Program-made: the position numbers and the translations under genes
Source of the DNA: Pseudomonadota bacterium
GTDB taxonomy: Bacteria > Bdellovibrionota > Bacteriovoracia > Bacteriovoracales > Bacteriovoracaceae
Reading direction: 5' to 3'
Length of the DNA stretch: 35,566 nt
Assembly: GCA_027487685.1 (NCBI GenBank)
Contig: JAIYDC010000065.1
Span: 1 to 35,566 of the forward strand
Part shown: positions 3,122 to 20,695 of the stretch, one piece after another
Position numbering within the stretch: the first letter of the stretch is position 1
How the letters are laid out: every line of letters starts with the position of its first letter
Notes under the pieces: model-generated
What the model was told of the DNA's origin: nothing
The model's database searches: none
Seen by the model: only the letters and a program-made list of their open reading frames with translations

Positions 3122-3281
3122 GCCACTGCTCCACCCTGAGACGTATTCTTAAGAACATAAATAGCGGCGTCATTATCGGGATAAGGAACTCCCGACAGAG
3201 TAAAACACTCCAGCTTAACATGAGTCATTATCCGTGCGGAAAAGACGATAAGAAACTTTGAATCGTTCACCCAGGATTCGT
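3122..3281 (+). other. Intergenic region before the GLUG-like lipoprotein
   Basis: This 160-bp gap follows the permease gene. It holds a 10-bp palindrome TTCTTAAGAA near 3147-3156 and an inverted repeat TCGGGA-8 nt-TCCCGA at 3176-3195. The latter lacks a following T-run, so it is not a convincing intrinsic terminator. No small ORF with a ribosome site and no RNA gene is evident. Confidence 0.4.
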
Positions 3282-6200
3282 ATGTTAAAGACCACTAACC
3301 TCCTTCTTCTGTTTCTGGCACTGGCGACCGTAGCTTGTAGCAAGAAATCCTCAGATGTCCGACTAGAAGTAAGCCACAATTTTGTTTTTGGTAGCGCTGG
3401 GACGTCGGAGCTTGCGAAAGGCGGCCTAATGGTCTGGGGAACGAGTTCGACCGGGGCCGCCTTCGGTCGAGTCGTCGGTGACGGCTCAGCGGTCAATCTC
3501 CAGTTACAGTCTGGAAGCTGGACATTCTTCGCAATGGCCTGGGATGGAACAAAAAACTATTTCAACACGACACTCTCTCCAGGGGACCGCGACGTCTTTG
3601 GTGGCATCGTCCGCTGCGGAAGAAGTGCGCCGACCCAGATCGAGGGCGAGAGAGCAACGGTCAACCTTACCCTGACGGATGTCGGTTGCGGAGATCAAGC
3701 CTTCAAAGGGACCGCGGCCTTTACTCCCGGAACTCTCCGTCCCTTCCGTCCTGTTTTCTGCAACAGCGTTACCAACGTCACGGACGCGACGAAAGTCTGC
3801 GCCGATACGATCGGAGAGCCTAGAAAGGTTGCCGAACGAGCGCCCATAGGGAGCTTTCGGATCGTCCTAAAAAACTTTTTCACGACGGGAGGCCCGAGAG
3901 TCCCAGGCCCCGACGGACTCAGGGGTGAATGTGTGCCCTTTTTTGGCCACGCCGATGGCGGAGTTGAAGCAGATCCCTATTACGGCCTATCCAAAAGGAC
4001 TGTTCCAAATCTCCCTGCAGGTGGCCCCGGTCTGCCTTTTTTTACAGAGATCGAAATGTTTCCTGGAAATGGGGACTGTAATGCCGCTGGCATCAATGCC
4101 CGAGCACCGATACTTAAGGCTTTTCCGGATGGCATCGCCAACAATACATTCAACAGTAAGAACTTCGTCACGGCGGCCGAAAACCGTCACTACCTCACCG
4201 TGCCACCGACGACAGTCTGCGCCGGGCGAGAGGATCCCTCTCCCGATGGTGCAGCCTTCGCCGCTGGGGACGGAAGCGTTGACCGACCTTACGCCATCTG
4301 TAACGTCACCCAGTGGAATGCGATTAGCGACCTGACGAAGGCATACAAGCTCCAGGCCAATTTGAACTTCAACCCTTTCTCTAAGGGGATAGGGATGGGG
4401 ATGCCCACAAGTCACCCGCTTTATCATTGCCTCGACTTCGGCACGAACTTCGTTCCTCTGGGCGCTATTGCCAGCTGCGCCGGTCCCGAAAGCGATCTCG
4501 TATGGAACACCTCAACACCCTTCACCGGATTCCTAGAAGGCGGTAGCTTTACCCTTAAAGGACTGCGCTTTCGTAATGACGTGGCCAACGACGTGGGTCT
4601 CTTTTCACAAATCGCCGGGAACGCTCGCATCCAGAACTTAAAACTCGACTCGTTGGAACTCGAAGGTAAAAGCTTCGTTGGGGGTCTGGCGGGATCAATT
4701 GCAGGGACGTCCACGCCGCCAGCTATTGTTAAGGTAGATAACATTCAAATCATCAACAGCGAGGTACGGGCCCGGCAGGTCTCAGGTAATTCGAAGGCTG
4801 GAGGCCTGGCAGGATCCATCGCCTACGCTACCGTCGGCAACATCTGGATTGATCGCTCTCGGCTTAAGGCCGATGGGAAATATGTAGGTGGGATTGCAGG
4901 TGACGCTACAAACTCGACAGTAAGAAATATCTCCGCTGACATGGAAATCAGAGCGGATTTTCAGGGAGTTCAAAAGATCGGTGGTATTTTTGGGCTGACA
5001 AGTTCGACATCAATCGATAACGCGAAATTTGAAGGGTCAATCACTGCCACAGGGGACATGATCGGCGGAATTATCGGTGTGGCCAACACTGGTACCCAGG
5101 CGAGGAATGTCTATTCAATCGCCTTTATCAGAAACTCTAGTACTGGCAGTAACCTCAAGACCGGCGGCCTCTTCGGATTCTGGAATAGCACGGCCAATGT
5201 CGGCCCGGGGTACTCTCTCTCCTATCTGTCGTCTCCCTGTATGACTGGCTGCCAGCTAGGGGCGATAGTTGGGATGACAAATCCCGCGACTTGGACTCTT
5301 GTGACAAGCGGCAAACTCTATAAGTTAAGCGCAACAGAGACTGGAGAAAACTCCGGGGGGACGTTCGGCAGTCAAGAGATGGTTCTCACTCTCGACCAAT
5401 TTAAAGCTCCGGCCACCTCCATTGGAGGAAACTTCCCAAACACCGGCATCAACGATTGGGAGTACAAAACCAGCGTCTACCCGCGGCTGGACTTCGAAAA
5501 CCACGTCTGCACCGGAAGCTCCGTGCAGACTAGCGTAGCGACCCAACTCACGGCGAAACGTATCTGTAACGACAACGAATACTTAGCTATGGAAAGTGAC
5601 ACCGGAACCTTCTTTAAACTTGCCGCGAACATCCGTTTACCGAACCCCACCAGCGCTGCGACTAGAATCGCAACCTTCAGTAAACAACTAGACGGCGATC
5701 ACTTCGCCCTTATTGGTGGCATAGGACAGGACGTAGGCCACATCGGCACGAACAACGGCACTCTAAAAAACCTCAGGCTCCTGGGGCTGACCAGAAACGA
5801 TACAACCGCTGGAACGGAGACGAATCCAGGCGCCGTCTTCGTTGCTATCAATAACGGAAATTTGGAAGACATCACCGCTGATCTCTACGGAAACTTCCAC
5901 AGCTACGCTGGTCTCCTCGTTGGGAAAAATGCAGTAAACCTAGGTAAGATAAGAAACGTCGAGGTCCAGGGGGCACTGGCCGCCGGTGGTTCCGTCGCCC
6001 CAATCGCTTACCTCAACGAGGGCCTCATTGAAGGCTCAATCTCGTCCACAGAAATGCGAAGCAACACAGCGACAGGCTCCATCTACGCAGGCTTTGTGGT
6101 CAAGAACCAAGGGACAATCATTCGCTCGAACTCCAAGTCTCGGCTTCACGACAGCGCCACACAAACAGCTAGCGAAGTTTCGATGCTGGTCTACAACAAC

Positions 6201-6977
6201 GAGGGGATCATCCAAGACGTCTCCGTCTCGGATGAGTCCTACTACAGTATTCACGGGACCAATGCTTATTACTTTTATAAGACTAATACTACTGGTTTGG
6301 GAAGAATCGACCGCCTCACAAATTTTGGCTCGATCTTCCGCAATCCCGCCAATTATACGACTGCCATTACGACTTTTCCAACTGACAACGGTGCCTCTGA
6401 GGGAACAATCGGAGTCCTCCTCCGGCAGGGCGGAAGATCCGGCATAAGACTCTTAGACCGTCAGCCGTTCACTTGTACCAATGCAGACGATAATGAGCTT
6501 GAGATTCCAAGCTGGAGTTCGATACCGGATTTCGCTAACTGGGACAGTGCACTCGGCTTAGGGGGGGCCTATAACGGTTTTAGCCCTAATGCTAAGCGCC
6601 TCGTCGTCGACGCGGAATTAAACTCCGGAATCCGCTTCATTCAGCAAGTTATCAACTTCGACTCAATTGCAAAGAAATTTAGCATTCCTTCGGAAGACTG
6701 CCCCGACTCCAAAACAGGAAAGGTCTCTCTCTACTGGACGAATGATATCCCAGTCGGTTCTTCAGGTGTTGCGGCCGCCGGCGTTCTTCTTCCCCAGGAC
6801 TCATTATCCGCAAGTAACGCCGGAGAAGAATGGTACTACAACACCTACATCTTGCCCAATGACGATAGCGAGGTACTCGCCTACTACGCTTACTACTTAG
6901 GCATAACTTCCACGGCCGTGACTCCAAGACTGTGGGAATATAATGACGAAGGTCTAGAACTCTTCGAAATGAAGTAG
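3282..6977 (+). CDS. Large surface lipoprotein with GLUG-like repeats
   Basis: The ATG at 3282 has AGGA five bases upstream and gives a 19-residue lipoprotein signal ending in ATVAC. A TTG at 3258 in the same frame lacks a ribosome site and would only add eight polar residues. The mature protein (about 1213 residues) should be lipidated at that Cys and exported. After an N-terminal beta-rich region comes a stretch (about 4677-5190) with six G-G-(L/I)-(A/F/I)-G motifs, such as VGGLAG, AGGLAG, VGGIAG and IGGIFG, spaced 84-121 bp apart. These resemble GLUG repeats, which form beta-helices in secreted adhesin-like proteins. A second series around 5840-6320 shows N-x-G-x-I repeats of a similar kind. 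Many Cys suggest disulphides outside the cytoplasm. The function is unknown; surface binding is an inference. A 7-G run lies at 6561-6567. The receiver gene follows after 63 bp but is probably independent. Confidence 0.85.
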   Translation: MLKTTNLLLLFLALATVACSKKSSDVRLEVSHNFVFGSAGTSELAKGGLMVWGTSSTGAAFGRVVGDGSAVNLQLQSGSWTFFAMAWDGTKNYFNTTLSPGDRDVFGGIVRCGRSAPTQIEGERATVNLTLTDVGCGDQAFKGTAAFTPGTLRPFRPVFCNSVTNVTDATKVCADTIGEPRKVAERAPIGSFRIVLKNFFTTGGPRVPGPDGLRGECVPFFGHADGGVEADPYYGLSKRTVPNLPAGGPGLPFFTEIEMFPGNGDCNAAGINARAPILKAFPDGIANNTFNSKNFVTAAENRHYLTVPPTTVCAGREDPSPDGAAFAAGDGSVDRPYAICNVTQWNAISDLTKAYKLQANLNFNPFSKGIGMGMPTSHPLYHCLDFGTNFVPLGAIASCAGPESDLVWNTSTPFTGFLEGGSFTLKGLRFRNDVANDVGLFSQIAGNARIQNLKLDSLELEGKSFVGGLAGSIAGTSTPPAIVKVDNIQIINSEVRARQVSGNSKAGGLAGSIAYATVGNIWIDRSRLKADGKYVGGIAGDATNSTVRNISADMEIRADFQGVQKIGGIFGLTSSTSIDNAKFEGSITATGDMIGGIIGVANTGTQARNVYSIAFIRNSSTGSNLKTGGLFGFWNSTANVGPGYSLSYLSSPCMTGCQLGAIVGMTNPATWTLVTSGKLYKLSATETGENSGGTFGSQEMVLTLDQFKAPATSIGGNFPNTGINDWEYKTSVYPRLDFENHVCTGSSVQTSVATQLTAKRICNDNEYLAMESDTGTFFKLAANIRLPNPTSAATRIATFSKQLDGDHFALIGGIGQDVGHIGTNNGTLKNLRLLGLTRNDTTAGTETNPGAVFVAINNGNLEDITADLYGNFHSYAGLLVGKNAVNLGKIRNVEVQGALAAGGSVAPIAYLNEGLIEGSISSTEMRSNTATGSIYAGFVVKNQGTIIRSNSKSRLHDSATQTASEVSMLVYNNEGIIQDVSVSDESYYSIHGTNAYYFYKTNTTGLGRIDRLTNFGSIFRNPANYTTAITTFPTDNGASEGTIGVLLRQGGRSGIRLLDRQPFTCTNADDNELEIPSWSSIPDFANWDSALGLGGAYNGFSPNAKRLVVDAELNSGIRFIQQVINFDSIAKKFSIPSEDCPDSKTGKVSLYWTNDIPVGSSGVAAAGVLLPQDSLSASNAGEEWYYNTYILPNDDSEVLAYYAYYLGITSTAVTPRLWEYNDEGLELFEMK

Positions 6978-7040: not shown

Positions 7041-7439
7041 ATGAATAATGCCCTCCCCCCTTCCGACTACATTCTCATCGTCGATGACGAAGCTGACATC
7101 ATAGCTCTGCACGAAATTGTCGTTCGAGTTTTCTTCTCCGGTACAATTGTTACAGCAGAATCGGGCAAGGAAGCGTTGGATAAGATTCAAATGCTCGGAG
7201 ATCCGATGATCATTATTTCGGACCACAAGATGCCTAACGGTGATGGTCTTTTTCTGTTCGAATCTTTAAAAGTTCAGGGGAGTAGAGGTCATTTCATCCT
7301 CTGCACTGCTACCCCTTGTGCCGAGGTCAAGGCCATTTACTCAGAGTGCGTCACGGTCATCGAGAAGCCTCGGACGGCGCCTGAACTTGCAAAGCTTATT
7401 CCCGTTCTCCTCGCTCAGTCGAATGCCAAAAAAAGCTGA
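7041..7439 (+). CDS. Single-domain response regulator (receiver protein 1)
   Basis: A 132-residue stand-alone REC domain with no output domain. The phospho-acceptor pocket is complete: D15, D16, E17, acceptor D61 in SDHKMP, T89 and K109 in EKP. Such proteins act by protein-protein contact, as in CheY and Spo0F. The start ATG has AGGA about five bases upstream. It is the first of a tandem pair; a hand alignment with the next gene gives about 50 identities over some 116 positions, including I-S/T-DH-x-MP-x-GDG and FILCT, so the pair arose by duplication. Only 24 bp separate the two, so they are probably one operon. The likely kinase is the PAS-PAS histidine kinase encoded convergently at 8623-10032, though this pairing rests on proximity. 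Confidence 0.93.
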   Translation: MNNALPPSDYILIVDDEADIIALHEIVVRVFFSGTIVTAESGKEALDKIQMLGDPMIIISDHKMPNGDGLFLFESLKVQGSRGHFILCTATPCAEVKAIYSECVTVIEKPRTAPELAKLIPVLLAQSNAKKS

Positions 7440-7463
7440 TCAACATTAAACGGAGAAAACACC

Positions 7464-7835
7464 TTGAGTGACCTTAGTTATATCCTTCTTATAGACGACG
7501 AAGAAGATATTCTCGAGCTCCACGAAGCCGTCATCAGGCGCTATTTCAAAGGCCGCATTGAACTCTGCTCCTCCGGACGCAAGGCCATGATCCGAGTCGA
7601 AGAGCTCGGTGATCCATCAATCGTAGTGACTGACCACACGATGCCTGACGGCGATGGTCACTTCGTCTACGAGGAACTGATAAAGCTCCAAAGCAAAAGC
7701 CGCTTCATTTTGTGTACTGGAACTGCACCCGAAACTTTATTACCTCTCTTCCCGAGTGCCGTCGCTATCCTTGAGAAGCCCAACACCCTGCGAGGACTCG
7801 AAGGGGTGATTCCAAAGCTCCTTCCCGAAATTTAA
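7464..7835 (+). CDS. Single-domain response regulator (receiver protein 2)
   Basis: A 123-residue REC domain, paralogous to its upstream neighbour. It starts at TTG (7464) with GGAG eight bases upstream. Active-site residues are D11, D12, E13, acceptor D57 in TDHTMP, T85 and K105. There is no DNA-binding or enzymatic output domain. Residues that usually set partner choice (alpha1, alpha4 and the loop after the Thr) differ from receiver 1, so the two may talk to different partners or form a relay. The TAA stop overlaps the stop codon of the convergent hydrolase within a shared TTAA, leaving no room for a terminator between the two units. Confidence 0.92.
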   Translation: MSDLSYILLIDDEEDILELHEAVIRRYFKGRIELCSSGRKAMIRVEELGDPSIVVTDHTMPDGDGHFVYEELIKLQSKSRFILCTGTAPETLLPLFPSAVAILEKPNTLRGLEGVIPKLLPEI

Positions 7836-8626
7836 GCTCTCAGTGGCAGGTGGGCCCGGAGGACTTCGACAAACTCAGTTGGTGCCGTAAGGTGCGGGCA
7901 GTGACCGTTGGACGCCAATTTAACAAAGTGACTTCCCTTAATCTGGCGATGGACATAATCGCCTACAACTTCCGGGGCTATGACATCGTCTTTACACTGA
8001 AGGATAAGAGTTGGAAGATCTAGCTTAGGAAGTTCACTTCGGGAATCGGATGTGAAGGTCACGCGAGCGAAGTGCTTAGCAATGTCCGGACGGATTTGAC
8101 AAAAGCTAGTCGCGATCATCTTACCCTGCTGGGGATCGTTTCCGGTGAGGACGGGGGCAATGGCCTCTGCCCATCCAGCGTAATTGGACTCGAGGGAGCG
8201 GATCAACCCTTCGATGGCCTCACTCGTGAATCCTCCCACATAATCGCCGGAGTTAACATAGCACGGAGAGGGTGTGACAAGAATGAGTGCCTTAAAGAGG
8301 TCAGGACGTTTGACCGCAGCGCTAACACCGATCATCGCACTGACCGAATGGCCGACGAAAGTCACTGGACCGATGCCAAGGTCCTCAATAACCTCAATCA
8401 CGTCGTCAGCATAGCCGGCAAGACTGCCGTACTTTCCCTTATCGTAATAGGCCGCCTCTGATGCACCAGAGCCCATGTGATCAAAGAGCACCAGACGGTG
8501 AGTCTTCTCCAGCTCGGGGCTGACCAGACGCCACATCTCCTGACTGCAACCGTAACCATGGGAGAGCATCAAGACCTCGTCTCCGGATCCAAGGAGGTTG
8601 ACGTTATTTCGCTTGATGATGTTCAT
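7832..8626 (-). CDS. RsbQ-like alpha/beta hydrolase
   Basis: A 264-residue single-domain alpha/beta hydrolase of the RsbQ/KAI2/D14 clade. The oxyanion region reads SHGYGCSQEMW (22-32). The nucleophile elbow is GHSVS with S94, the acid is D213 or D214 in CKDDVIAP, and the His is H242 in NGHCPH. Blocks TPSPCYVN, NYAGWA and LQCKDD are hallmarks of Bacillus RsbQ, which is needed with the PAS phosphatase RsbP to signal energy stress. Related hydrolases are known to work with PAS domains joined to other outputs. Here the ATG overlaps the stop of the PAS kinase gene (ATGA), so the two are translationally coupled. The likely role is to make or deliver a small ligand to the kinase PAS domain; the ligand is unknown. 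An ordinary esterase is less likely given this clade and context. Confidence 0.92.
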   Translation of the reverse strand: MNIIKRNNVNLLGSGDEVLMLSHGYGCSQEMWRLVSPELEKTHRLVLFDHMGSGASEAAYYDKGKYGSLAGYADDVIEVIEDLGIGPVTFVGHSVSAMIGVSAAVKRPDLFKALILVTPSPCYVNSGDYVGGFTSEAIEGLIRSLESNYAGWAEAIAPVLTGNDPQQGKMIATSFCQIRPDIAKHFARVTFTSDSRSELPKLDLPTLILQCKDDVIAPEVVGDYVHRQIKGSHFVKLASNGHCPHLTAPTEFVEVLRAHLPLRA

Positions 8627-10032
8627 GGTGACTCCTCAGTTTGCGGAAAATCGAGAATGAAAGTAGTTCTTAAACCAGATGGCCCAAGGTAGAGTTCGGC
8701 GCCATTGGCAGAGATCAGAGTCTTAGAAATCGAAAGGCCAAGGCCCGATCCCTTACCAGGTGCTTTGGTCGTAAAGAACGGGTTAAAGATAGATACTCGA
8801 ATGGCCTCTGGAATGCCCGGCCCACTGTCGCTAACCTTGAGCAAAAACTTTTTAGGGTGAACTTCGATCTCAAGTTTGACCCATTTCTCTTCGGATTCTT
8901 GGACTGCGTCGAGGGCATTATTCAAGAGATTAAGAAGCACTTGCTCGATCTCGCTCACCCGACAACGGATAGGTACCAGAGCAAGGTTGCAGTGGAAGGT
9001 AAGAGCAACTCCGTGCTCGCAAAACTTTGGTTCAGCGATTAAGAGAACCTCATCGCAGATCCGGCGCAGGTCATGAGACTCGAGCTCATCACAAGAGCCA
9101 TCTCGCGCGAGGGTCTTCATGGAGCGGATAATGCTAGAGATTCGGCCCACGTTCCGCTTAATCCCCTCGAGCTTGGGACGAGCATTCGGAAATGCCACTA
9201 ACTCATACCCTAAGACTTCGGCCATCCCGTCAATGATGGTCAAAGGATTATTAATTTCATGTGAAATCCCGGACGCCATCACTCCGAGGGCCGCGAGCCT
9301 AGCACTTGCCTCGATCTGGGTCCGCTGATGCTCCATCTGCTGATCACGCAAGATCAGGGGTGTCAGGTCATTTTCCAAGCGGAAAATCTGAGGAACTCCG
9401 CTGATGTTCATCATCACGGCCTTGGCGAAAACATAGGTCGTGGACTGGGAAGATCGCTGGTAACGATATTCCCTTTCAAATGAGAGCTCACCAAGTTTAA
9501 AACTATTCCAGTCTTGGGTGACACTTTCCCGGTCCTCCGGATGAACAGCATTTAGCCATCCATCCCCGATGGCCTCGTAGAGCTTGAGCCCCGTCATCTC
9601 TTTCCAGCAATCATTCACACTGAAGCAGCTTCCAAGCTTGTCGGCGAGAAAGACCCCAACGGGTGACTGTTTGATGAGCTGATCTCGAAACTCAAGCTGC
9701 TGAAGAAGTTTCTTTCGGACAAGGGCCTGTTCGGTCACATCAATTCCAATGCCCGCGTACCCCGAATCTGTAGGATAGACCGAGATCTCCGCGTAAAGAA
9801 TCCCGAGCTTCGTCGGGAATGCGACCTCGCCGGACCATTCAAGGTTCGCGCCCAGCGCAGCCCTAAGGCCATCAACCATACCGGTTGAATTCTCGTAGGC
9901 GAGAAGATCATGGAAGCTTTTACCGGGGGTGAGGTAGCGTTCGAAGTTTGCATTACATGAGCGCACAAGGAAGCTTCGCTCGAGTTCGAACGTTAGTGCG
10001 CGGTCTTCTATAAAACGTTTTAGGTGCATCAT
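8623..10032 (-). CDS. PAS-PAS sensor histidine kinase
   Basis: A 469-residue kinase without membrane segments, so probably cytosolic. Two PAS-like regions come first: about 15-103, ending in IGIDVTEQ, and about 112-228, with SPVGVFLAD and the W-x-x-x-VHPEDR motif. The dimerisation/phosphorylation helix follows with H258 in [11 protein letters not shown]. The ATPase domain shows the N box near [12 protein letters not shown] (365-377), G1 DSGPGIP (402-408), an F box FNPFFTTK and G2 GSGLGLS (428-434). It has no fused receiver, so it must phosphorylate a separate one; the twin receivers just beyond the hydrolase are the obvious candidates. It opens with two adjacent ATGs and no clear Shine-Dalgarno sequence. 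It is first in a two-gene operon with the RsbQ-like hydrolase (4-bp overlap). One PAS domain may bind a ligand supplied by that hydrolase. Confidence 0.94.
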
Positions 10033-17593: not shown

Positions 17594-17621
17594 AACCGAC
17601 AAAATTATGTGCCTATCGGTT
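17594..17621. promoter_or_regulatory. Inverted repeat between divergent promoters
   Basis: AACCGA (17594-17599) and TCGGTT (17616-17621) form a 6-bp dyad with a 16-bp spacer. It lies just upstream of the extended -10 box, between the HAMP-like operon and the Ser/Thr/Pro-rich lipoprotein gene. It could be a shared operator; short dyads also occur by chance. Confidence 0.3.
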
Positions 17622-17716
17622 TCTCAATCCCTAAAAACAACAGCCGTAAAGTACTGAAAACACATTGGCGTAATAAATTCAGTCAAGTGCTCAAAAGACT
17701 CACCGATACTGTCAAC

Positions 17717-20695
17717 ATGACAATAAGACCTCCATTGGGCCTAAGTATACTTATCCTCACAGTTATTCTTAGTGCATGTTCTAAGGAGGGAGCAAGCACG
17801 TTATCTGAAACAACGGAACCCCAAACCGATTTTGGCCCAAGCTCGAATAGGCCATCAACGGCCACACCATCCCGAGATGAGGAAGCAGGCACGGTAACCT
17901 CAGAAGGCAGCAAGAACCCTTCCTCCGACCCCATAGGAAGCGAGAATAGCGGCTTAGAGTCCTCAATCCCTGATTCACAGGTGTCAACTCCGGGAGTATT
18001 ACCCTCAAATCCCTCTGTCGCCCAGACCACTTCGGGTGCATTTAATGGGGAATCAAGCACATCATCTCAAACTCTGCCACCGGCACCAGCTCCTACCACG
18101 CCGACTAATGAGGCTACAATATCTCCATCAACCGATCCTCTAGCGGGCACGCTAATCTCCGCCAGTGCTTCAAATCCCAAAGCGTTAGAACCTCAATCTC
18201 CATTAGAAACCGCCAGCTTCTCCCCTTCGACATCTTCAGAGGAAAGCACTTCGGTGACTACTTCTAAAGAAGTTGATCCGCTGAAGGGTACACTCATCGC
18301 GGCCAATGAATCAGATACCGTGAACCAAACTCCTTCGCTTCCCAAGTCATCTCTAACGTCAGAATCTCCGACAACATCTCCAACCGAGGCAATAGCTTCA
18401 ACCGCTCCATCAATAGCTGAAGAAAATGAGGCTATGACTTCGCCGTCGTCTTCAGAATCAAAGATTGTTAGAGAAAAGAATGCTGACTCTGAAACAGTAG
18501 CACAAGCCTTGACGAATCCACAGGCGACATCGTCGCAAACTGGAGTAAGCGCGACATCAAACCATTCGGCAGATGTGAACCGGCCATCAACTGGTGTGGC
18601 ATCAATTCCTGAATCATCAACTGCCCCACAGTCCGATCTTAAAGATAGTCCTCAAAATCTGATCAGTCATGAGTCAACATCTCAGAATTCACCCGATCCT
18701 CTCGCTGGCACCTTCATCGCTGCCAGCGGTTCGAAGTCGGAAGCAAGTGCTGATAGCATGAATGCCGGGAGCACTGTAGCAGTGCCACAAGCTTCGTCGA
18801 ACACTGGGACAATAATCGGAAATAGCACTTCATCTTCTCCAAGTTCATCTCCGGAAGCTGAAATAGGCGCTCATTCGAATGGATCGCTAGCTGTGAACCA
18901 GGCACCAACTAGCGTACCATCAATTCCTGAATCATCATCAAAGAACTCAACAGATCCCCTTGCCGGCACACTCATCGCAGCCAGAAGTTTGGACTCGGCA
19001 CCAAATCACGTTGAAACAACAGAAAAAACTCCAAATGTAACCACTGCCACATCCTCAATAACTCCTGAAACATCAGTCACCGAAACAATGACGGCCAAAG
19101 GCCCATCGGTAGATGTTGGAGGAGGATCTTCTAATGGACCGAAGGCATCTGAATCGCTTCCCAGCAGTTCCTATGTCGCAGAATCTCGGGATCTAAAACA
19201 AGCGCCGTCGAATCCAGGGACAACATCTTCGGAATCTGGAGTAAGCCCTCATTCAAATGGATCGGCAACTGTGAACCAGGCGCCAACGACAGTCGCATCA
19301 GTTCCTGATTCATCAGCTGCGCCACAATTCGATTTAAGAGATGGAACTCAGAGTCCGACAACTAGTGGTTCCTTATCACCAACTTCAACCGATCCTCTCG
19401 CCGGCACTTTGATCGCTGCCAGTGGTTCGGGTTCGCAATCCACTGCAATTCAATCTCCATTTGAAAACCCTGCTTTTTATTCTAAGCCAACGAATGTCGA
19501 AAGTACTCCGAAGGCCGAAACAGCAGTATTGACTCAGACACCAACATCCGTCGCATCACCAGTTGCGGCAATAGAGGCAACGACTCCTAACTCTTCATCA
19601 ACCATTGATTCTCCTCAACAAAAAGTCACAGGGTCTGGGTCGGCAACTGAATCACAAACAGTTGCTAATGGACCCTCACCCGCCACAAGCGACCTACTAG
19701 CAAAGACTCCAACAAATGATGCAAACCGAGGATCAGAATCTTCGAACCACGCGGTAGATCGGGCCCCGGCCTCAGAAGATAAAAATGTAGCACTTGAAGA
19801 TCCAGGTCCTACCATAGCATACCCGGATCCCATCTCTCCTGAGATCCCTGTTACAAAAGAGAATACGCTCGTCGCTCCAATCATTCCACCGCCTAAGTCT
19901 AATCTCACGTGGGTTCATCCCTCTATGATAGAGCTTCCTCCCCACTCGGAGACAGTTTGCTCAAACCTTTCCAATGCGACCAAGACCTTGACTCCGGGGA
20001 GAGGTCTCCTGGCACGAATTTTTGACGGATCGAAAATCAGAAGGGTAGTCCACACAAGCCAAATCATCCGCAGAGGTAACCTTCTTGATACTGCTCTCAT
20101 AATCCCGGATCTTAACTTCTCTCGTCTTGTCCATCCTGGATACCTCCGGACGGATGGCGCCCCTATCCTTAACAGCAAAGGCTTGCCGCTTAGGGATAAG
20201 TTCTCTCTCCACATCAAAACCCACCTTGAACTTGCTCCAGAAGACGAAGAAGGCCTATACCAACTATCAGTAATCGCCGACGATGGGATTCGAATCTTCT
20301 CAGGTCGCAGGAGAATTGTTTCCGTCGATCGAGTCACTTCGACCATCTTTGAGTGTAGTGCTCGCCCTTTCATAAGAATGGAGCGCGGCAAACCAATCCC
20401 GCTTACGATAAGAACTCTTAGCGGACCTGCAGGCCAGAGCGCTGTGATTCTACTTTGGAGAAAAGTTCGACACCTAAATAGAAAGACCCTTACTGGTAAA
20501 AGAAATAATGACGATATAGAACTTCGCTGCAAAGAAGAAGGAAATCATTTCTTCCACGATCCAACAACAAATCTAGCGCCGACTTCAGATTTTCTTGAGC
20601 TGCTCGATCCGAAGAAACGGAAAATTCCATGGAAGATAATCCGGCACGAGAATTTCAAGCTGCCTGAGAATGCTGGAAAAGGCTGCGGCATCTAG
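17717..20695 (+). CDS. Ser/Thr/Pro-rich repeat lipoprotein with PA14-like C-terminus
   Basis: The ATG at 17717 gives a 21-residue lipoprotein signal ending in VILSAC. A GTG at 17609 in frame would bury that signal behind 36 polar residues, so I reject it; neither start has a strong ribosome site. The mature protein is about 970 residues. For about 700 residues it is Ser/Thr/Pro/Ala-rich, almost without aromatics or Cys, so probably extended and disordered. Within it the motif DPLAGTLIAAS recurs five times. The last 250 residues are folded and contain four Cys. The pattern GLLARIFDG ... EEGLYQLSVIADDGIRIFSG ... AVILLWRKV matches the strand order and the DDG signature of PA14 domains, which bind carbohydrate or act in adhesion. 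A lipid-tethered stalk holding a PA14-like head is the likely layout; the ligand is unknown. Confidence 0.82.
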   Translation: MTIRPPLGLSILILTVILSACSKEGASTLSETTEPQTDFGPSSNRPSTATPSRDEEAGTVTSEGSKNPSSDPIGSENSGLESSIPDSQVSTPGVLPSNPSVAQTTSGAFNGESSTSSQTLPPAPAPTTPTNEATISPSTDPLAGTLISASASNPKALEPQSPLETASFSPSTSSEESTSVTTSKEVDPLKGTLIAANESDTVNQTPSLPKSSLTSESPTTSPTEAIASTAPSIAEENEAMTSPSSSESKIVREKNADSETVAQALTNPQATSSQTGVSATSNHSADVNRPSTGVASIPESSTAPQSDLKDSPQNLISHESTSQNSPDPLAGTFIAASGSKSEASADSMNAGSTVAVPQASSNTGTIIGNSTSSSPSSSPEAEIGAHSNGSLAVNQAPTSVPSIPESSSKNSTDPLAGTLIAARSLDSAPNHVETTEKTPNVTTATSSITPETSVTETMTAKGPSVDVGGGSSNGPKASESLPSSSYVAESRDLKQAPSNPGTTSSESGVSPHSNGSATVNQAPTTVASVPDSSAAPQFDLRDGTQSPTTSGSLSPTSTDPLAGTLIAASGSGSQSTAIQSPFENPAFYSKPTNVESTPKAETAVLTQTPTSVASPVAAIEATTPNSSSTIDSPQQKVTGSGSATESQTVANGPSPATSDLLAKTPTNDANRGSESSNHAVDRAPASEDKNVALEDPGPTIAYPDPISPEIPVTKENTLVAPIIPPPKSNLTWVHPSMIELPPHSETVCSNLSNATKTLTPGRGLLARIFDGSKIRRVVHTSQIIRRGNLLDTALIIPDLNFSRLVHPGYLRTDGAPILNSKGLPLRDKFSLHIKTHLELAPEDEEGLYQLSVIADDGIRIFSGRRRIVSVDRVTSTIFECSARPFIRMERGKPIPLTIRTLSGPAGQSAVILLWRKVRHLNRKTLTGKRNNDDIELRCKEEGNHFFHDPTTNLAPTSDFLELLDPKKRKIPWKIIRHENFKLPENAGKGCGI
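18134..19426 (+). repeat. Five degenerate copies of a DPLAGTLIAAS-encoding repeat
   Basis: Copies begin at 18134, 18275, 18695, 18953 and 19391. They read DPLAGTLISAS, DPLKGTLIAAN, DPLAGTFIAAS, DPLAGTLIAAR and DPLAGTLIAAS. Codon choice differs between copies while the peptide is kept, which suggests selection on the peptide rather than recent DNA duplication. Copies 3-5 sit in longer units that also share a V-N-x-x-x-(S/T)-x-V-x-S-(I/V)-P-(D/E)-SS segment upstream. Confidence 0.85.

Follow-up and report, generated by a model that had tools for sequence, protein, structure and literature searches.

In a 35,566-nt stretch of Bacteriovoracaceae DNA (hereafter the window), an alpha/beta hydrolase gene of the RsbQ clade lies directly behind the gene of a cytoplasmic PAS histidine kinase outside the RsbP class, and this hydrolase-kinase pairing is conserved in four genomes. 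We regard it as evenly balanced whether the two genes make up a sensory operon in which a re-partnered RsbQ-clade hydrolase gates the non-RsbP PAS kinase, which would then phosphorylate one or both of the adjacent receivers. The novelty lies in the changed PAS partner and the gene order and is modest; the second receiver is a local detail of one species.

All four genes outlined in a preliminary description of this DNA were recovered from the sequence, each at or adjoining the position given there, and the two overlaps that it had reported, ATGA between kinase and hydrolase and TTAA at the convergent stops, are present as well. The features of the locus are as follows:

7041–7439, plus strand: receiver 1 (RR1), stand-alone; ATG start; Pfam Response_reg, 46 bits; ortholog of the sole receiver at the locus of the sister genome, G088
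7464–7835, plus strand: receiver 2 (RR2), stand-alone; TTG start; Pfam Response_reg, 40 bits; paralog of RR1, missing at the sister locus
7832–8626, minus strand: alpha/beta hydrolase of the RsbQ/KAI2/D14 clade, 264 aa, from PDB search and alignment; triad S94-D214-H242
8623–10032, minus strand: cytoplasmic sensor histidine kinase, 469 aa, from Pfam, alignment with relatives and a negative RsbP-PAS HMM search
8623–8626, minus strand: ATGA, overlap of kinase stop and hydrolase start, read from the sequence; likewise in G088 and G114
7832–7835, unstranded: TTAA common to the stops of the convergent RR2 and hydrolase genes, read from the sequence

On the minus strand the kinase gene precedes the hydrolase gene, and both receivers, spaced by 24 nt, run on the plus strand and converge on this pair. 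The ATGA overlap predicts translational coupling of kinase and hydrolase. The counterpart of the shared TTAA in G088 is a 12-nt overlap between receiver and hydrolase. A promoter and terminator scan of the locus gave signals at or below shuffle level, and an Rfam search returned no match.

The RsbQ-clade hydrolase is rare, occurring in nine of 369 phylum genomes and in two of 26 genus genomes. In four of the nine it is encoded directly behind a kinase of the window type, namely in the window's own genome (G000), G088 and G114, each with the ATGA overlap, and in G217, where an 18-nt gap separates the genes; the overlap persists across genera whose hydrolases are about 52% identical. G124 and G035 show the canonical order of hydrolase followed by RsbP-PAS kinase, G004 and G142 carry orphan RsbQ-clade hydrolases, and G093 harbors a similar kinase with no hydrolase. 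The gene order common to the window and the G088 locus is metG, SbtA-like permease, one receiver, hydrolase, kinase and DEAD-box helicase; the window additionally has RR2 and a large gene of no known family (3258–6977), which lies between the permease and RR1 and is absent at the G088 locus. The genes common to both are under purifying selection, with window-versus-G088 dN/dS values of 0.05 for the hydrolase, 0.10 for the kinase and 0.17 for RR1. Conservation of the four genes as one block has to be divided: the kinase-hydrolase pair is present in G000, G088, G114 and G217 and at least one convergent receiver in G088, and the receiver pair was not found at the other loci. A genus-wide ancestral block found no support, the hydrolase being confined to the two genus genomes and the helicase neighbours differing in all others checked.

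Pfam recognizes the hydrolase as an alpha/beta hydrolase, and a PDB search bore out its earlier placement in the RsbQ clade: its best solved structure is Bacillus subtilis RsbQ (1wom, E 1e-74), followed by KAI2 and D14, the plant smoke and strigolactone receptors, at about 1e-50 to 1e-62, with the next hydrolase families at ~1e-14. The triad residues S94, D214 and H242 are invariant across 25 aligned relatives. In the hydrolase tree, the enzymes of the window, G088 and G217 are grouped (94/88) within the bacterial RsbQ clade, and that of G114 forms a long branch whose position varies between trees; one clade of all four kinase-linked hydrolases was not rejected (p-AU 0.43). The MGNPDRPEL region (about 165–177 in RsbQ numbering), conserved in RsbP-linked enzymes, is altered in the window, G088 and G114, and is mostly retained in the aligned hydrolases of G178 and G004. 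In all four kinase-linked hydrolases, an aspartate next to the GFGCDQ loop has changed as well. These altered segments, known from few sequences, would fit a different partner surface.

Pfam recognizes PAS_3, HisKA (9e-11) and HATPase_c (5e-19) domains in the kinase, with the phospho-acceptor H258 in a HEINNPL motif, and no receiver domain. The preliminary description had credited the kinase with two PAS regions and no receiver, of which the missing receiver and PAS2 (PAS_3 type, about residues 115–224, with the Pfam match covering about 115–213; the sole kinase PAS to reach the Pfam cut-off) hold, whereas PAS1 lies below the Pfam cut-offs and is visible through relatives only. This degenerate region (about residues 12–103, ending in DVTEQ) is supported via alignment to relatives in which it is detected (G217 and G093); the window PAS1 is shortened in that alignment and as a lone query gave no PDB match. 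PAS1 of G217 matches the PAS domains of 3ewk, which we take to be MmoS, at 4e-10 and the aerotaxis receptor Aer at 1e-5, and the profile of the kinase family matches 3ewk at 2e-19. The PAS domains of MmoS and Aer are flavin PAS domains. A flavin in the window PAS1 appears doubtful, since this region gives no match and is shortened. A single-sequence AlphaFold model of the sensor region reached a pLDDT of 36, too low for use. Among same-class kinases outside the sister genome, the sensor region is closest to those of G093 and G114 (6e-30 and 4e-27, respectively), the rest matching at 2e-16 and weaker, and the best full-length kinase match outside the genus is G217 (2e-79).

In the RsbQ-PAS module, the RsbQ gene immediately precedes that of a protein whose N-terminal PAS domain is of the RsbP class and devoid of a DIT motif (Nadezhdin, Brody and Price, 2011; PMC3183031), and whose output is a PPM phosphatase, a histidine kinase or a diguanylate cyclase. 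This PAS class is marked by an hPCG motif and a conserved F-alpha, of which F55 and Y59 are required for RsbQ contact, and signalling is the sole known bacterial role of the RsbQ clade (PMC3183031). The window resembles the histidine kinase version of the module in that an RsbQ-clade hydrolase with a conserved triad adjoins a cytoplasmic PAS histidine kinase, but its gene order is reversed, with the kinase upstream, and its kinase has no RsbP-class PAS, contains a DIT motif and carries HEINNPL in place of the usual HDLRNPL. Likewise, the likeness to B. subtilis RsbQP, the energy-stress branch of the sigma-B pathway, lies in the PAS signalling partner and in the close match of the hydrolase to RsbQ, while the output in the window is a histidine kinase rather than a PPM phosphatase and the PAS falls outside the RsbP class. 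As the published search demanded RsbQ upstream (PMC3183031), a reversed operon could not have turned up there. In the literature, chiefly open-access papers, we found neither a description of a reversed kinase-RsbQ operon nor a paper joining RsbQ with Bdellovibrio.

An HMM of the RsbP-PAS domain was built from 13 domains (11 partners from plasmid loci, plus G124 and G035), for which leave-one-out controls gave 2e-9 to 5e-46. Even with filters off, the window kinase yielded no match, and the values for the kinases of G217 (8e-4) and G088 (4.6) are at the level of general PAS similarity. No RsbP-PAS was found anywhere in the G000 or G088 genome, while the same search detected those of G124 (9e-50) and G035 (1e-34); thus, no partner of the known type was found in trans. 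These searches ruled out a concealed RsbP-PAS, both within the kinase and in the rest of the genome. In the alignment, the window kinase contains neither APCG nor ETHxxPLLxMQG and is devoid of the motif in which the RsbQ-contacting residues of RsbP-PAS domains lie. The DIT-type motif after PAS1 reads DVTEQ in the window and G088 and EITEQ or EITER in G114 and G217, whereas RsbP-PAS domains have none. Moreover, a 100/99 branch separates the HEINNPL transmitter from the mostly HDLRNPL transmitters of canonical partners, and by sequence the window kinase is assigned to another histidine kinase subfamily. The direct analogy to RsbQ-RsbP drawn in the preliminary description is not borne out, in view of the missing RsbP-class PAS in kinase and genome, the DVTEQ motif and the reversed order.

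Outside the phylum, 23 plasmid loci served as the comparison sample. In 18 of them, the gene directly downstream of the hydrolase encodes a PAS-bearing partner, and each of these partners matches the RsbP-PAS model; 11 had gone into building it, and seven are independent (1.7e-20 to 2.3e-50). Of the remaining five loci, four show no evident signalling partner next to the hydrolase, and the fifth is from Deinococcus. How often the reversed order occurs outside the phylum can be gauged only from these 23 loci and one Rhizobiales locus.

RR1 (132 aa) and RR2 (123 aa) are each covered for the most part by Pfam Response_reg and have no output domain. Their active sites, counted from the sequence, are complete (D15, D16, D61, T89 and K109 in RR1; D11, D12, D57, T85 and K105 in RR2), their identity is 42.6%, and together with the G088 receiver they form one clade (95/98), so that the earlier account of paralogous, convergent receivers with full active sites stands. 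Within this clade, RR1 pairs with the G088 receiver (90/81; 61–66% identity), and RR2 would therefore be either older than the species split and lost in G088, or fast-diverging. Across the class, receivers of this stand-alone type are limited to G000 and G088, the two full-block genomes. Outside the block, the nearest kin of RR1 and RR2 are the receiver domains carried by receiver-HD_5 proteins, whose genes follow aspS. The G088 locus has a single receiver, and none was seen beside the pairs in G114, where the contig starts inside the kinase and the upstream side of the locus lies off the contig, and G217; on these grounds, it was rejected that twin receivers are a conserved component. Nor are they the new feature for which they had been taken, as the pair was found once and the RsbQ-PAS-kinase operon of Eleftheria terrae is also flanked by two.

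Stand-alone receivers beside RsbQ-PAS-kinase operons have precedents. In Paraburkholderia caledonica, one receiver gene lies upstream of such an operon and another, in convergent orientation, some 20 nt beyond the kinase; Bradyrhizobium barranii has one receiver upstream. On the E. terrae plasmid NZ_CP106953.1 (L158, 2588–5683), the genes run receiver, hydrolase, RsbP-PAS kinase and receiver, with the kinase overlapping both neighbours by 4 nt, and adjoin chemotaxis genes (CheA, MCP); this is an independent two-receiver RsbQ operon. It shares with the window the combination of RsbQ-clade hydrolase, PAS kinase and two stand-alone receivers, but it differs in its canonical order, its RsbP-PAS (1.7e-20) and its receivers, which are co-directional, lie on either side and are only 34.5% alike.

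The linkage of hydrolase and kinase could instead reflect shared expression only, the hydrolase being a co-transcribed enzyme or downstream effector with no input to kinase sensing. The window-type kinase of G093, which occurs without a hydrolase, the orphan RsbQ-clade genes in G004, G142 and several plasmids without an adjoining signalling partner, and the missing RsbQ-docking PAS are in line with this explanation. We nevertheless consider it rather unlikely, given the persistence of the ATGA overlap across genera despite the divergence of the hydrolases, the clade's restriction to signalling roles in bacteria as known so far (PMC3183031), and the presence of a PAS in the partner in most sampled loci having a neighbouring signalling gene. 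It is highly improbable that the window holds a canonical RsbQ-PAS module after all, with PAS1 as a strongly diverged RsbP-PAS. Such a module would agree with the position of the hydrolase within the RsbQ clade and with the general PAS similarity that RsbP-PAS shows in hhalign to the kinase family's second PAS domain (probability 77%), yet the HMM that recovered every left-out member found nothing in the window kinase, which moreover has the DIT-type motif, lacks APCG and ETHxxPLL, is encoded in reversed order and belongs by its transmitter to the other side of the 100/99 branch.

The receivers, for their part, might serve another kinase, e.g., that of the receiver-HD_5 protein after aspS, and be neighbours of this one by chance, as sinks or cross-talk parts. 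Their nearest non-block relatives are indeed receiver-HD proteins found across the genus, and the pairs of G114 and G217 have no receiver seen alongside; still, this assignment is unlikely, as within the class this stand-alone type is restricted to the pair of genomes whose block at this site is complete, and forms a clade distinct from the receiver-HD domains (95/98).

For the proposed sensory operon, we surmise that an RsbQ-clade hydrolase was re-partnered with a PAS histidine kinase outside the RsbP class. The hydrolase would bind or hydrolyse a small molecule and alter the autophosphorylation state of the kinase, either by contact, as the gene linkage would suggest, or by product hand-over. 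The kinase would then hand phosphate to the adjacent output-less receiver or receivers, a linkage seen in the two closely related genomes G000 and G088, and these may work through protein contacts in the manner of CheY, Spo0F or DivK. RR2, putatively a lineage-specific extra receiver, may serve as a phosphate sink or as an additional output, and a sink or branched circuit of two receivers is possible. Receivers that have no output domain and rely on a separate kinase also occur among single-domain response regulators described as hubs or phosphate sinks (e.g., MrrA, PMC5964349), which belong to another phylum and are not known to be linked to an RsbQ hydrolase.

More broadly, we tentatively suggest, with somewhat less confidence than for the operon itself, that RsbQ hydrolases are portable ligand-sensing subunits, here moved off the RsbP-PAS to gate another class of PAS kinase, with a signal readable without the RsbP docking helix and a like small-molecule input rewired to a receiver-only phosphorelay. 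The RsbQ ligand, its route to the PAS domain and the plant KAI2 ligand are unsolved questions of the field, and a natural RsbQ-clade hydrolase without the usual PAS partner separates two models of signalling. Should this hydrolase nonetheless control its kinase, then signalling can also proceed by a route other than delivery to the RsbP F-alpha helix or docking on that helix. The operon is small, cytoplasmic and amenable to in vitro work.

Several other genes came to notice. In the window, the gene at 3258–6977 encodes a predicted lipoprotein of 1239 aa with a TTG start, a lipobox-like LATVACS near the N-terminus and no Pfam match, and a 1028-aa ORF at 17609–20695 has no Pfam match at 1e-5. 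In G178 (L062, 1213–2869), an RsbQ-clade hydrolase gene overlaps the 3' end of the gene for a 287-aa protein, which has no Pfam or PDB match and is possibly a new type of hydrolase partner. On a Deinococcus psychrotolerans plasmid (L161, 195–5753), the gene of a remote hydrolase relative (32%) overlaps those on either side, which encode a 929-aa PAS protein and a diguanylate cyclase; neither neighbour has an RsbP-PAS, and the locus is maybe another non-RsbP pairing. The receiver-HD_5 gene directly after aspS (L058, 1858–3183, on contig C4 of the window's own genome; also L066 and L059) is conserved in the genus, and G080 has two receiver-HD_5 genes in tandem, one with a degenerate receiver.
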